Positions 22,081-32,647 of a DNA stretch of 64,000 bases are shown here, one piece after another. The stretch lies in contig CP075525.1 of the NCBI GenBank assembly GCA_025808415.1, forward strand, positions 310,001 through 374,000. Direction: 5' to 3'. The notes under the pieces are model-generated. The model was not told the DNA's origin, made no database searches, and was given only the letters and a program-made list of their open reading frames with translations. The DNA comes from Cyclobacteriaceae bacterium (GTDB lineage: Bacteria > Bacteroidota > Bacteroidia > Cytophagales > Cyclobacteriaceae). A program made the position numbers and the translations under genes. Position 1 is the first letter of the stretch; each line of letters begins with the position of its first letter.

Positions 22081-22120
22081 AAAAAATAATCCCCAAGGGT
22101 AAAGTCCCCTGGGGATTATT
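22081..22120 (-). terminator. Intrinsic terminator of rpsU
   Basis: The 11-base arms 22085-22095 and 22110-22120 (AATAATCCCCA and its complement) form a hairpin. On the minus strand it is followed by a run of six to seven T, so it terminates the rpsU transcript before xerC/D. Confidence 0.8.
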
Positions 22121-26983: not shown

Positions 26984-28006
26984 CTATTCGTTATAAATAA
27001 CCTGGAGCAACGTTCTTCCAACAGCTTCAAGGGTTTCTTTGCTAATATTTTCCATACTGTCTTTTCGACTATGGTGAAAATCACCAAAGTAGCCTTCGCT
27101 ACCATCGTAATGAACGATGTTAATGGTGGGGATTTTTGCATAGGTATTTACAAACAGGTGATCATCCATTATTGCCCCTTCCTTCTTGTTTAGGAAAAGA
27201 TGACCATACCCTAAACGGCTGGCAGTATTCCAGACTTTATCGACAATACCCGGGGCATACTCCATCGATACACCCTCGCGAACAAATTGTGCGTACTTCC
27301 CACCTACCATGTCAAGTAAAATACCATAGTAAGCCGAGTAGTTTGGCGTGTGTTTATTTTTCGACCAGTACTGTGAACCCAGGCACCACCATGAATCCAG
27401 CTTTTTGGGGAGTTTAAAGTCGCTGTTGTTGCCATAGAGGCTTTCAGCGGTTGACGTATCAAACCCCCAGTCTTCACCATCAAAAAGAATAATGTCCACA
27501 CCTACCTCCGGCAAATTGTTCTCATGAAATACGCGGGCTATTTCAAGCAACACCCCAACGCCACTGGCACCGTCATTGGCACCATCGAAAAGTGCCCTTG
27601 GGTTTTGCGGATCTTTATCGGCAAATGGGCGGGTATCCCAATGGGCTGCCAATAGTATTCGCTTGGTTTTATCCGGATTAAAGGCGGCTATGATGTTTCG
27701 CAAAAAAATCTTTTGATTATCGTAAGTCATGGCTTCAAAATCCTGAATATTTACCTGGGCACCGTAGGCACTGAACTGTTTTACGAAATAATCGGCCGCA
27801 TTTTTATGGGCAGCGGTATTGGGTATGCGTGGGCCAAAATCAACTTGCTTCTTTACAAAATCGTAGGCAGAATCTGGATTAAACACCGGCACAACGACCA
27901 TTTTGGCAGGCCTTTCCGTTTGTTGTTCAACCTGTTTCCCTGGGTTGCCAGAACAAGAATAAAGGAGCGCAAGGGCAAGTATTAAAAGATGATCAGATGT
28001 TCGCAT
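26984..28006 (-). CDS. M28-family zinc peptidase lipoprotein (glutaminyl cyclase-like)
   Basis: A signal sequence with lipobox LLYSC (cysteine about residue 18) predicts a lipoprotein. The metal-ligand segments of M28 are in order: AAHWDTRPFAD, DGANDGASGVGVLLEIAR, ILFDGEDWG and, near the C-terminus, INIVHYDGSEGYFGDFHH. The order and spacing resemble bacterial glutaminyl-peptide cyclotransferase-like aminopeptidases. It may act on N-terminal glutamine or on peptides at the envelope. Length is 340 residues. It is convergent with rfbA and divergent from the rimP operon. Confidence 0.88.
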   Translation of the reverse strand: MRTSDHLLILALALLYSCSGNPGKQVEQQTERPAKMVVVPVFNPDSAYDFVKKQVDFGPRIPNTAAHKNAADYFVKQFSAYGAQVNIQDFEAMTYDNQKIFLRNIIAAFNPDKTKRILLAAHWDTRPFADKDPQNPRALFDGANDGASGVGVLLEIARVFHENNLPEVGVDIILFDGEDWGFDTSTAESLYGNNSDFKLPKKLDSWWCLGSQYWSKNKHTPNYSAYYGILLDMVGGKYAQFVREGVSMEYAPGIVDKVWNTASRLGYGHLFLNKKEGAIMDDHLFVNTYAKIPTINIVHYDGSEGYFGDFHHSRKDSMENISKETLEAVGRTLLQVIYNE

Positions 28007-28073
28007 AAGTGTTCAAAGTAAGACAAAATTCAGGGTTCAGAAATTCCCAACTTTGGGCATTGAAATTCATTAT

Positions 28074-28104
28074 TTGGCGATCAAGGATAAATCCTATACA
28101 TTTG
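28074..28104 (+). promoter_or_regulatory. Promoter of the rimP-nusA-infB operon
   Basis: TTG (28074-28076), a 20-base spacer, TACATTTG (28097-28104). Transcription should begin near 28110, leaving a leader of about 55 bases that contains the hairpin at 28128-28159. Confidence 0.6.
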
Positions 28105-28127
28105 CATCGAAATATGATCAACTAGAC

Positions 28128-28159
28128 GAGGGGACACAAAAGTCCCCTCTTTGTTTTAT
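28128..28159 (+). terminator. Terminator-like hairpin in the rimP leader (candidate attenuator)
   Basis: GAGGGGAC (28128-28135) and GTCCCCTC (28142-28149) pair perfectly around ACAAAA, followed by TTTGTTTTAT. This has the form of an intrinsic terminator, but it sits between the operon promoter and the rimP start at 28167. No gene on the same strand ends just upstream, so it is not an ordinary 3' terminator. NusA, made by this operon, acts on hairpin-dependent pausing and termination, so feedback attenuation is an attractive idea. Confidence 0.6.
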
Positions 28160-28166
28160 CGGTTTT

Positions 28167-28631
28167 ATGGATTTAGTGGAGCGCATAAAAGAACTGGCCG
28201 CGGTACATCTTAAGGATGAATCCCAGTTTTTGGTAGAGGTGGTTGCGTCCCTTAAAAAGAAGCCTTTTAAGTTGATCGTGATTGTTGATGGTGACAACGG
28301 TGTAACCATTGATGATTGTGCGGAGCTGAGCCGTGCCCTTTCGGCTGCGTTGGACGAGGAGAACTTGTTCAACGACCCGTACATGCTTGAGGTGTCAACA
28401 CCAGGATTGGATCACCCACTGAAACTGACGCGGCAGTACCAGAAAAACGTAGGGCGCACGGTTAAGGTGAAAACAAAGACCCTTGTTTTACAAGGTAAGC
28501 TGGTAGCGGTAACCCCACAGGAAATAACAGTAGAGGTTACCAGCGGCACAGGGAAAAAGAAAGAAGTTAAGGAAGTAACCATTCCTTTTTCTGATATAGA
28601 AAAAACATTTGTAATGGTATCATTTAAATAA
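28167..28631 (+). CDS. rimP: Ribosome maturation factor RimP
   Basis: RimP assists 30S assembly. The 154-residue protein has the N-terminal alpha/beta domain (DLVERIKELAAVHL to LKKKPFKLIVIVDGDNGVTIDDCAELSR) with the motif YMLEVSTPGLDHPLK, and a C-terminal SH3-like domain. The ATG at 28167 is chosen because the longer reading from 28053 would translate through the promoter and leader hairpin. The gene starts the classical rimP-nusA-infB operon; nusA follows after three bases. Confidence 0.93.
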   Translation: MDLVERIKELAAVHLKDESQFLVEVVASLKKKPFKLIVIVDGDNGVTIDDCAELSRALSAALDEENLFNDPYMLEVSTPGLDHPLKLTRQYQKNVGRTVKVKTKTLVLQGKLVAVTPQEITVEVTSGTGKKKEVKEVTIPFSDIEKTFVMVSFK

Positions 28632-28634
28632 GTT

Positions 28635-29888
28635 ATGACAACGAATGACACAGCTGCAGGCCTCATAGAATCGTTTGCAGAATTTGCGAAGCAGAAAAAC
28701 ATCGATCGGCCTACGATGATCCGTATCCTGGAAGATGTATTCCGGAATATGATCCGTAAAAAGTATGAAACGGACGACAACTTCGACATCATTATCAATG
28801 CCGACAAGGGTGACCTCGAAATCTGGCGCTTCCGCGAAATTGTCGATGATGATTCGGAAGACATTTGGGACCACGACAAGATCAGCTACTCGGAAGCAAT
28901 CAAGATTGAACCAGATTTTGAAGTAGGCGAAGAAGTAGCCGAGCAGATTTACCTTGAAGATTTTGGCCGCAGGGCAGTGACTACGGCACGGCAAACGCTT
29001 ATCCAAAAAGTAAAAGACCTGGAGAAAGATATTCTATTCCAGAAGTACAAAGACCTGGTGGGCGAAATAATCACGGGAGAGGTTTATCAAATACTGAGCA
29101 AAGAAGTTCTCTTGATCGATGCAGAAGGGAATGAAATCTCCATTCCACGAAGCGAACAAATCCAGAAGGACAGGTACCGCAAAGGTGAAAACGTGCGTGC
29201 CATTGTACACAAAGTTGAAATGGTAAACGGCAACCCGAAAATTATTTTATCGCGTACGTCACCCGTGTTTTTAGAACGCCTGTTCGAACAAGAAGTACCC
29301 GAAGTATACGATGGATTAATTACCATTAAGAAAGTTGTTCGTGAACCGGGCGAGCGTGCCAAGGTTGCGGTTGAATCGTATGATGATCGTATCGATCCTG
29401 TGGGCGCTTGTGTGGGCATGAAAGGATCACGCATTCATGCCATTGTGCGCGAGTTGCAGAACGAGAATATTGATGTAATCAACTTCACGGAAAACTTGGA
29501 GTTATACGTTCAGCGTGCCTTAAGCCCGGCAAAAATTTCCAGCATAAAAGTCGATAAGGACAATAGCCGGATTTCGGTTTACCTGAAACCCGACCAGGTA
29601 TCGTTGGCCATTGGAAAAGGCGGACTAAACATTAAGTTGGCAAGCCGTCTGGTGGGGTATGAAATTGATGTGTTCCGTGAACTGGATGGACAAACCGAAG
29701 AAGATGTTGACCTGGACGAATTCTCCGATGAGATTGAAGGCTGGATTATTGATGAGTTGAAGCGCATCGGTTTGGATACAGCGAAAAGTGTGTTGACTTT
29801 ATCGAAGGAAGAATTGGTAAGGAGAACAGACCTGGAAGAAGAAACCATTGAGCACGTGCACAATATTCTTCGTAAGGAGTTTGAATAA
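28635..29888 (+). CDS. nusA: Transcription termination/antitermination factor NusA
   Basis: NusA binds RNA polymerase and nascent RNA and modulates pausing, termination and antitermination. The 417-residue protein has the N-terminal polymerase-binding domain, an S1 domain (about 130-200, GEIITGEVYQ...), and KH domains with RIDPVGACVGMKGSRIHAIVRE- and SLAIGKGGLNIKLASRL-type GXXG loops. A short helical C-terminus follows but the acidic repeats of the E. coli protein are missing, as usual outside Gammaproteobacteria. It sits between rimP and infB. Confidence 0.97.
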   Translation: MTTNDTAAGLIESFAEFAKQKNIDRPTMIRILEDVFRNMIRKKYETDDNFDIIINADKGDLEIWRFREIVDDDSEDIWDHDKISYSEAIKIEPDFEVGEEVAEQIYLEDFGRRAVTTARQTLIQKVKDLEKDILFQKYKDLVGEIITGEVYQILSKEVLLIDAEGNEISIPRSEQIQKDRYRKGENVRAIVHKVEMVNGNPKIILSRTSPVFLERLFEQEVPEVYDGLITIKKVVREPGERAKVAVESYDDRIDPVGACVGMKGSRIHAIVRELQNENIDVINFTENLELYVQRALSPAKISSIKVDKDNSRISVYLKPDQVSLAIGKGGLNIKLASRLVGYEIDVFRELDGQTEEDVDLDEFSDEIEGWIIDELKRIGLDTAKSVLTLSKEELVRRTDLEEETIEHVHNILRKEFE

Positions 29889-29943: not shown

Positions 29944-32592
29944 ATGGCAGAAGAAAAATTGATCAGGTTGAGTCAGGCTGCGAGGAAACTCAATGTGGGG
30001 CATCATACCATATTGGATTACCTGGCAAAAAAGGGGCACGTTGTTGAAAACAACCCCAACGCTAAACTTACGCCCGATCAGTTCGCCATCCTGTCCAAGG
30101 AGTTTGCGTCATCGGCAACCGAAAAAATGGAAGCCAGTGGCTTAACCATAGGCGTAAAGCATGCCGATAACCTGATCATTGAAAGCGAGAAGGAGCAGGC
30201 CTCTAAAAAGCGTGTTGACGAAGAGGAGAGCATCATGATTAAAAATCTTGGTGCGGCTGAAATTAAAAAGGAGGAAGCCAGGCCGGAAAAAATTGTACCC
30301 GAAAAGGCCAAGCTGGAAGGCATTAAGGTTGTAGGTAAGATTGAATTGGATAAAAAGCCAAAAGCTGTAAAGGAAGAAGAGGTTGAAGTTCCTGAACCGG
30401 TTAAGCAGGAAGAGAAACCCAAGGCACCGGAAGTAGTTGAAAAACCCGAGCAGGAGGTGATTAAAGCCCGTGCGGATAAATTACAGGGTCTTAAAGTTGT
30501 TGACCGCATTGAACTGCCGGTTGAACGAGAGAAGAAAAAAGATCAACCTGTAGCTTCGTCAGACGTTAGCGATGATGCTAAAAAAGGTAAACGTCCACGG
30601 AAACGCATCGTAACACCTGGCGATACAAAAGGTCAGCCTCCACGCGGTGGCCGACCGATGCCCCAACGCCCCCAAAAAGCTGAACCAACCGAAAAGGAAA
30701 TCCAGGACCAGATCCGGGCAACGCTGGCTAAACTCAGCGGAGGAAGCAAGAAGAGTTCCGGTTCAAAATACAGGCGTGAAAAGCGCCAGGCAGTATCCGA
30801 TGCACAAGAACAACAGATATTGCAAGAGCAAGAAGCATCAAAGACCCTACGCGTTACAGAGTTCATTTCGGCCAGTGACCTTGCCTCGCTGATGAACGTA
30901 TCGGTTAACGATGTTATATCTACCTGCCTGAATTTGGGCATGTTCGTATCAATCAACCAACGATTGGATGCAGAAGCCATTACCGTAATTGCTGATGAGT
31001 TTGGGTATGATGTTCAATTTACCACAGCCGATGAAGAAGCTGTTGCTGAAGAAGAACAAGAAAGGGAAGAAGACCTGAAACCTCGCGCGCCAATCGTCAC
31101 CATTATGGGTCACGTTGACCACGGTAAAACATCGTTGCTCGATTATATCCGTAAAACAAAAGTTACGGCATCCGAAGCGGGTGGAATTACACAGCATATT
31201 GGTGCATACGATGTAACAACAACAACCGGTAACAAGATTGCCTTTTTGGATACACCCGGTCACGAAGCTTTTACGGCCATGCGTGCACGCGGTGCCAAGC
31301 TTACCGATATTGCCATTATTGTTGTGGCGGCCGATGATGACGTTATGCCACAAACCAAGGAAGCCATTAACCATGCCCAGGTGGCGGGTGTGCCCATCGT
31401 TATTGCGATTAACAAAATTGATAAGCCAACGGCCAACCCTGAAAAAATAAAGGAATCGTTGGCCAAGATTAATATTTTGGTTGAGGACTGGGGCGGCAAA
31501 TACCAATGCCAGGCTATCTCTGCCAAATCTGGCCAGGGTGTAGATGAGCTATTAGAAAAAGTACTGCTGGAAGCCGAATTGTTAAACCTGCGGGCCAACC
31601 CCGACAGGCCTGCCATAGGATCTATTATTGAAGCTTCGCTGGATAAAGGCCGTGGTTATGTGGCCACTATTATGGTGCAAGCCGGTAAACTTAAAATTGG
31701 CGATGTAGTGCTTGCCGGGGCACACTACGGACGTGTAAAAGCCATGTTCGATGCAACAGGTGGAAGAATAAAAGAGGCTGGGCCATCTACCCCCGTTCAG
31801 ATTCTAGGATTGGATGGTGCACCGCAAGCAGGTGAGAAATTCCAGGTGATGGATAGCGATCGTGAAGCGCGCGAACTGGCTTCCAAACGCGGACAGATTT
31901 TGCGTGAGCAAAGTATCCGTACCAAAAAGCACATCACGCTGGATGAAATCGGCAGGCGATTGGCCATTGGTAATTTCAAAGAACTGAACGTGATTGTTAA
32001 AGGTGATGTGGATGGTTCTGTTGAGGCACTTTCCGATTCATTGTTGAAACTTTCTACGAAGGAAATCCAGGTATCCATTATCCATCGTGGTGTCGGACAA
32101 ATATCTGAATCGGATGTGTTGTTGGCTTCGGCTTCCGATGCGGTTATCGTTGGTTTCCAGGTGCGCCCTTCATCGGCCGCGCGCAGGTTGGCCGAGAATG
32201 AAGAGATCGAAATCCGTTTATACTCCATTATTTACGATGCCATCAACGATGTGAAGGCTGCCATGGAAGGTATGTTGGCGCCTGAGCAGGAAGAAGTGAT
32301 TGTGGGCAACGCGGAAGTACGCGATGTGTTCAAGATTACCAAAGTGGGCACCGTGGCCGGCTGTATGGTTACCGATGGATACATTAAACGCAACAACCCG
32401 ATACGCCTGATCCGCGATGGTATTGTGGTGTATGCCGGTAAGCTTAACTCACTCAAACGCTTCAAAGATGATGTGGGTGAAGTAAAATCAGGCTACGACT
32501 GTGGTATGGGCATCGAAAGCTTTAACGATATTCAGGTGGGGGATGTAATTGAAAGTTATGAAATGCGCGAAGTGAAGCGGACGTTGAGCTAG
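29944..32592 (+). CDS. infB: Translation initiation factor IF-2
   Basis: IF-2 is the GTPase that places initiator tRNA on the 30S subunit and promotes subunit joining. The 882-residue protein begins with an IF2N-like domain ([20 protein letters not shown]), then a long charged Lys/Glu/Pro-rich linker (about 55-290), a second IF2N module ([16 protein letters not shown]), and the GTPase with GHVDHGKT (from residue 389), DTPGHEAF and NKIDK. ATG at 29944 is preferred over an in-frame TTG two codons upstream. An intrinsic terminator follows at 32617. Confidence 0.97.
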
Positions 32593-32616: not shown

Positions 32617-32647
32617 AAAAGCCCCGGTTTTAGACCGGGGCTTTTTT
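32617..32647 (+). terminator. Intrinsic terminator of the rimP-nusA-infB operon
   Basis: AAAAGCCCCGGT (32617-32628) pairs with ACCGGGGC plus a T6 run (32634-32647). It is 24 bases after the infB stop codon and strong. A weaker action on the opposite strand is possible because of the A-run. Confidence 0.9.

Follow-up and report, generated by a model that had tools for sequence, protein, structure and literature searches.

The rimP-nusA-infB operon of this Cyclobacteriaceae bacterium opens with a promoter, a perfect 8-bp G-C-rich hairpin and a T-run, an arrangement that recurs before rimP across the phylum Bacteroidota and that, by analogy, is most likely the same self-limiting NusA brake as is known in Bacillus, Streptococcus and Escherichia coli. 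Feedback of NusA on its own operon through promoter-proximal termination, without an antiterminator, is the best explanation of the data, and I would put its probability at roughly two in three. New here are the phylum-wide conservation of the element, its tight geometry with respect to the promoter, and the turnover of its stem between classes.

The features of the locus are collected in Table 1; the genes stand in the order rimP, nusA, infB, their identities being given by Pfam. A gap of 20 nt separates TTTG from the -7 box, which I take to agree with the Bacteroidota promoter consensus, and the sequence leads one to expect a transcription start near 28109-28112. Another 23 nt lie between the -7 box and the hairpin, which starts ~15-20 nt past the expected start site and ends 17 nt before the rimP ATG (28167). 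Six of its eight pairs are G-C, there is no mismatch, and TTTGTTTTAT follows directly on the 3' side. Folded alone it has a dG of -15.1 kcal/mol (z -4.4 against shuffles), and it remains the dominant fold when longer stretches of the leader are folded. The sequence-only reading that preceded this work had described a promoter, then, within about 20 bases, a perfect 8-bp GC-rich hairpin with a T-run, and only then the rimP start; sequence and folding confirm this anatomy, spacing included. Folding of the hairpin and of longer leaders disclosed neither an alternative leader fold nor an antiterminator. A leader peptide was also considered and rejected, the sole tiny open reading frame (AUG AUC AAC UAG, at 28114) being conserved in the closest relatives only. 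The U-tract is broken up (UUUGUUUU). This weakness was entertained as a mark of NusA dependence and discarded: 11 sampled ordinary 3' terminators of the genome are equally interrupted, so that the U-tract says nothing separate on NusA dependence.

Table 1. Positions of the operon, its leader and the neighbouring gene
Feature	Position	Strand	Basis
Operon promoter, -33 element TTTG	28073..28076	+	sequence
-7 element TACATTTG, consensus TAnnTTTG	28097..28104	+	sequence
Predicted terminator hairpin GAGGGGAC-ACAAAA-GUCCCCUC (3' arm also given as GTCCCCTC), 8 bp	28128..28149	+	sequence, folding, conservation
U-tract UUUGUUUUA, expected transcript-release site	28150..28158	+	sequence; T-run kept in relatives
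rimP, 154 aa, operon gene 1	28167..28631	+	Pfam RimP_N 3.5e-17, DUF150_C 1e-9
nusA, 417 aa, proposed sensor	28635..29888	+	Pfam NusA_N 1.7e-32, KH_5 4.1e-29
infB (IF2)	29944..32592	+	Pfam IF-2 1.1e-41, GTP_EFTU 4.6e-34
Divergent upstream ORF	26984-28006	-	open reading frame

Terminator-like sites as such occur in the region at chance rate (10 found, against 11.2 expected from shuffles), so that what has to be tested is the combination of promoter, hairpin, T-run and gene start. The genomic background consisted of the window (the whole 64-kb stretch of DNA analysed) and 20 sampled 20-kb stretches, 464 kb altogether, in which 191 gene starts are preceded by a gap of 80 nt or more. A terminator-like hairpin lies upstream of 13 of these 191 starts, and in this 464-kb sample rimP is the only one where hairpin and TAnnTTTG box are no more than 60 nt apart. 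The motif GGGGAC-N2-10-GTCCCC is present once in the 4.05-Mb genome, at the rimP leader, and this single site rules out a regulon with further copies. Elsewhere in the window, a 12-bp hairpin with an A-run and a T-run (32617-32645), directly past infB and between convergent genes, is probably a two-way terminator that closes the operon, and a 14-bp hairpin with a T-run on the minus strand (~22086-22119), ~41 nt upstream of a minus-strand open reading frame and with no -7 box nearby, is probably the terminator of the preceding gene.

The sequence-only reading had named absence of the hairpin from close relatives as a refutation, and the hairpin came through this check strongly. A rimP match was obtained in 36 of 39 genomes (the source genome and its relatives) and 30 loci were read; all 30, from close and order-level relatives, carry a G-rich/C-rich hairpin and a T-run before rimP, most of them with the GGGGAC/GTCCCC stem. 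The T-run after the stem is kept in relatives. On the scale of the phylum, 110 rimP upstream regions were scored with dinucleotide shuffles as the control. A terminator-like hairpin was present in 108 of them versus 27% of shuffles, and hairpins above the strong threshold in 89% versus 2.1%; in the two misses (G163 and G044) a comparable hairpin, whose loop is longer, can be made out by eye. The converse approach was a blind scan of a one-genome-per-species collection for the exact pattern AGGGGAC-N2-8-GTCCCCTCTTT, which yielded at least 80 loci. rimP lies directly downstream in 68 of the 80 matches listed (tblastn), and a Parapedobacter locus (L229) with the same leader on the opposite strand brings the rimP-adjacent loci among them to 69. 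Among the matches listed, all 69 assessable Bacteroidota loci are therefore just upstream of rimP, five other Bacteroidota loci end too early to be assessed, and six non-Bacteroidota loci have no rimP beside the motif; the closest named relative among these matches is Chryseosolibacter indicus, whose NusA is 87% identical, which places the window on the Cytophagales side of Bacteroidota.

The mechanism that I propose is as follows. The hairpin and T-run would form an intrinsic terminator beginning ~15-20 nt into the rimP-nusA-infB transcript, at which part of the RNA polymerases would stop on the T-run and free a leader RNA of ~45-50 nt, while the remainder would enter the operon. An alternative antiterminator would not fit into so short a leader, so that the efficiency of the terminator itself would be the control point. 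NusA, the product of the second gene, promotes hairpin-dependent pausing and termination; higher NusA would then lower read-through, resulting in a joint negative feedback on NusA, IF2 and RimP. Actual termination in this organism I infer from the sequence, and the role of NusA as the sensor from what is known of Bacillus, Streptococcus and E. coli. NusA feedback is taken as the most likely reading on the strength of three precedents (B. subtilis, S. agalactiae and E. coli) and because NusA is encoded in the operon. Anatomy, conservation and these precedents together uphold the attenuator interpretation put forward in the sequence-only reading; its further idea, that the operon could sense its own NusA, fits the same body of evidence, the sensing step being borrowed from other phyla. 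A simple reporter, in Flavobacterium or in Bacteroides, could serve to test feedback of this kind.

The rival that survives best is a fixed partial terminator, which would hold the output of a strong promoter constantly low and sense nothing. It would account for a leader in which no antiterminator or ligand-binding part was found, and for a terminator that stays while its stem sequence, and even its G/C orientation, turns over between classes. Stem types in the phylum include GGGGAC/GTCCCC, GGGAAC/GTTCCC, AGTGGG/CCCACT and C-first stems such as CGCCC/GGGCG, with 73 G-first, 18 C-first and 17 mixed orientations. The C-rich arm comes first (e.g. CGCCC...GGGCG) in families f25, f27, f30, f37, f41 and f45, the orientation thus not being fixed within the phylum. 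That the terminator persists through this turnover suggests that selection acts on its efficiency. Conservation specific to the nusA operon is nevertheless difficult to reconcile with a device that senses nothing, as is the NusA-dependent feedback reported for the equivalent site of B. subtilis, and I consider the fixed terminator unlikely.

Alternatively, the terminator could be gated by an RNA-binding protein reading GAGGGGAC/GUCCCCUC, be it NusA through its KH/S1 domains, RimP, IF2 or another ribosome-assembly factor. The stem was examined on 42 distinct sequences. Its eight pairs are paired in 89.6% of cells, a figure lowered by a few misaligned rows, and 13 stem cells are changed on both sides versus 4.6 in shuffles, paired changes that count in favour of the NusA-feedback reading; the tally of doubly changed pairs, four, does not by itself exceed that of shuffles. 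In Cytophagales and Flavobacteriales the stem letters are more conserved than a plain terminator would require, a point against the NusA-feedback reading: the letters themselves, and not pairing alone, are kept over many genera, the G11-C26 pair is invariant and the adjoining pairs are nearly so. A protein reader would explain this pattern, and in the text of their paper Naville and Gautheret (PMC2965389) argued for one on similar grounds. Other classes of the phylum have different stems, however, some with the C-rich arm first, and the loop sequence displays no conservation among the aligned relatives, which makes a protein reader improbable as a general explanation. A version restricted to Cytophagales and Flavobacteriales, in which a dedicated protein, either NusA through its KH/S1 domains or a ribosome-assembly factor encoded in the operon, would bind GAGGGGAC/GUCCCCUC at the 5' end, is suggested by the sequences at rather low odds; if true, this group-specific gated terminator would sense the supply of transcription and ribosome-assembly factors.

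A third possibility is that the hairpin does not terminate transcription at all and instead stabilises the mRNA or modulates the initiation of translation, as its closeness to the 5' end and to the start codon alike might suggest. A hairpin of this type would not call for the T-run retained throughout directly 3' of the stem, nor for the geometry. In each of the 55 Bacteroidia-like regions a TAnnTTTG box precedes the hairpin by no more than 35 nt, compared with 10.9% at random positions. From the -7 box to the G-run the distance is 25 ± 3.7 nt (range 16-31, n = 54), whereas the distance from the hairpin to the first in-frame ATG has a standard deviation of 18.6 nt (range 7-110, n = 51). The tight promoter distance and the variable ATG distance indicate that the hairpin is tied to the start of transcription and not to that of translation, and a role in mRNA protection or translation is very improbable. 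Finally, a chance hairpin, which the chance rate of terminator-like sites in the simple scan might have suggested, or a terminator of the upstream gene can be dismissed with near certainty, as conservation refutes both, the ORF on the upstream side runs in the opposite direction, and the operon has its own promoter ahead of the hairpin.

The NusA-feedback reading can now be set against known systems. In 2010, Naville and Gautheret described the rimP-leader as the most ubiquitous attenuator; the main text of their paper names Firmicutes and Gammaproteobacteria and leaves Bacteroidetes unmentioned (PMC2965389). According to that text, the rimP-leader has, like the present element, a G-rich 5' arm, a C-rich 3' arm and a T-stretch, is found in the 5' leader of rimP-nusA-infB, and is devoid of any visible antiterminator. 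The published terminator-gene gap of 4-130 nt there compares with 17 nt here and 7-110 nt in relatives. The published stem is GGGc/gCCC, against GGGGac/gtCCCC here, so that GGG and CCC are present and the weaker c/g is absent (PMC2965389); GGGGGC/GCCCCC stems occur in some relatives (L038, G040 and G054). On its sequence, the element is thus a Bacteroidota member of the rimP-leader class, the literal GGGc/gCCC being matched in part only. Three loci (L098, L103 and L116, from genomes G086, G041 and G170) have tandem terminator-like hairpins before rimP, GGG-first and then CCC-first, whose arms could pair with one another; this is the reverse of the order in the Gammaproteobacteria tandem form as that paper's text presents it (PMC2965389).

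Leaders of the same kind are found in other phyla as well. AGAGTGGG/CCCACTCT or a near variant precedes rimP in 12 of 12 genomes of the class of a Selenomonadales genome, and similar hairpins precede it in one Oscillospiraceae and one Rhodospirillaceae genome. In these 12 genomes (L301 and L308-L318) the rimP leader reads AGAGTGGG...CCCACTCTTT, or nearly so, and this stem, specific to the class, is kept as strongly as GAGGGGAC/GTCCCCTC is here. Rfam gave no match in the 64-kb window or at the locus. Its rimP covariance model (RF01770) has its name and gene context in common with the element; at the locus it matched nothing, even with E relaxed to 5-10, the gathering score not being reached, and its best matches in the genome lie elsewhere and below the cut-off. 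RF01770 is a 102-position model; of 14 control genomes, just one scores above its cut-off. Since RF01770 does not match, the element is filed under the published rimP-leader class and not under RF01770.

Whereas the sequence-only reading had taken a conserved Bacteroidota attenuator as not known, a structured 5' element without an Rfam match was reported before rimP in Flavobacterium psychrophilum and other Flavobacteriaceae in 2021; the main text of that report gives no mechanism for it and no link to the rimP-leader (PMC9723704). Flavobacterium species (L217 and L307, the latter Flavobacterium johnsoniae) carry the same hairpin as here, and the element of that report, as its main text describes it, is presumably this hairpin. 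The main texts of the Bacteroides thetaiotaomicron maps are silent on nusA.

Three systems provide the experimental precedent. In B. subtilis, NusA stimulates termination within its own 5' leader; entry of transcription into the gene is controlled in this way, and NusA is autoregulated (PMC12288461). In both organisms the nusA operon has an intrinsic terminator in its leader, a predicted one in the present case; the effect of NusA is experimentally established there, while the negative feedback is proposed here by analogy (PMC12288461). The B. subtilis leader is also longer, ~180 nt according to the text of PMC2965389 versus ~57 nt here. In E. coli, rimP is preceded by the terminators t1 and t2, and the operon transcripts are increased in mutants with reduced NusA termination (PMC6511841). 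In S. agalactiae, termination takes place 31 nt past the start site, before rimP, and the short RNA is present (PMC4448216); the promoter-proximal geometry is near-identical to that of the present element, as seen by RNA-seq there and as predicted here. The present element extends the rimP-leader to Bacteroidota, where it is nearly universal and keeps a tight promoter-terminator distance.
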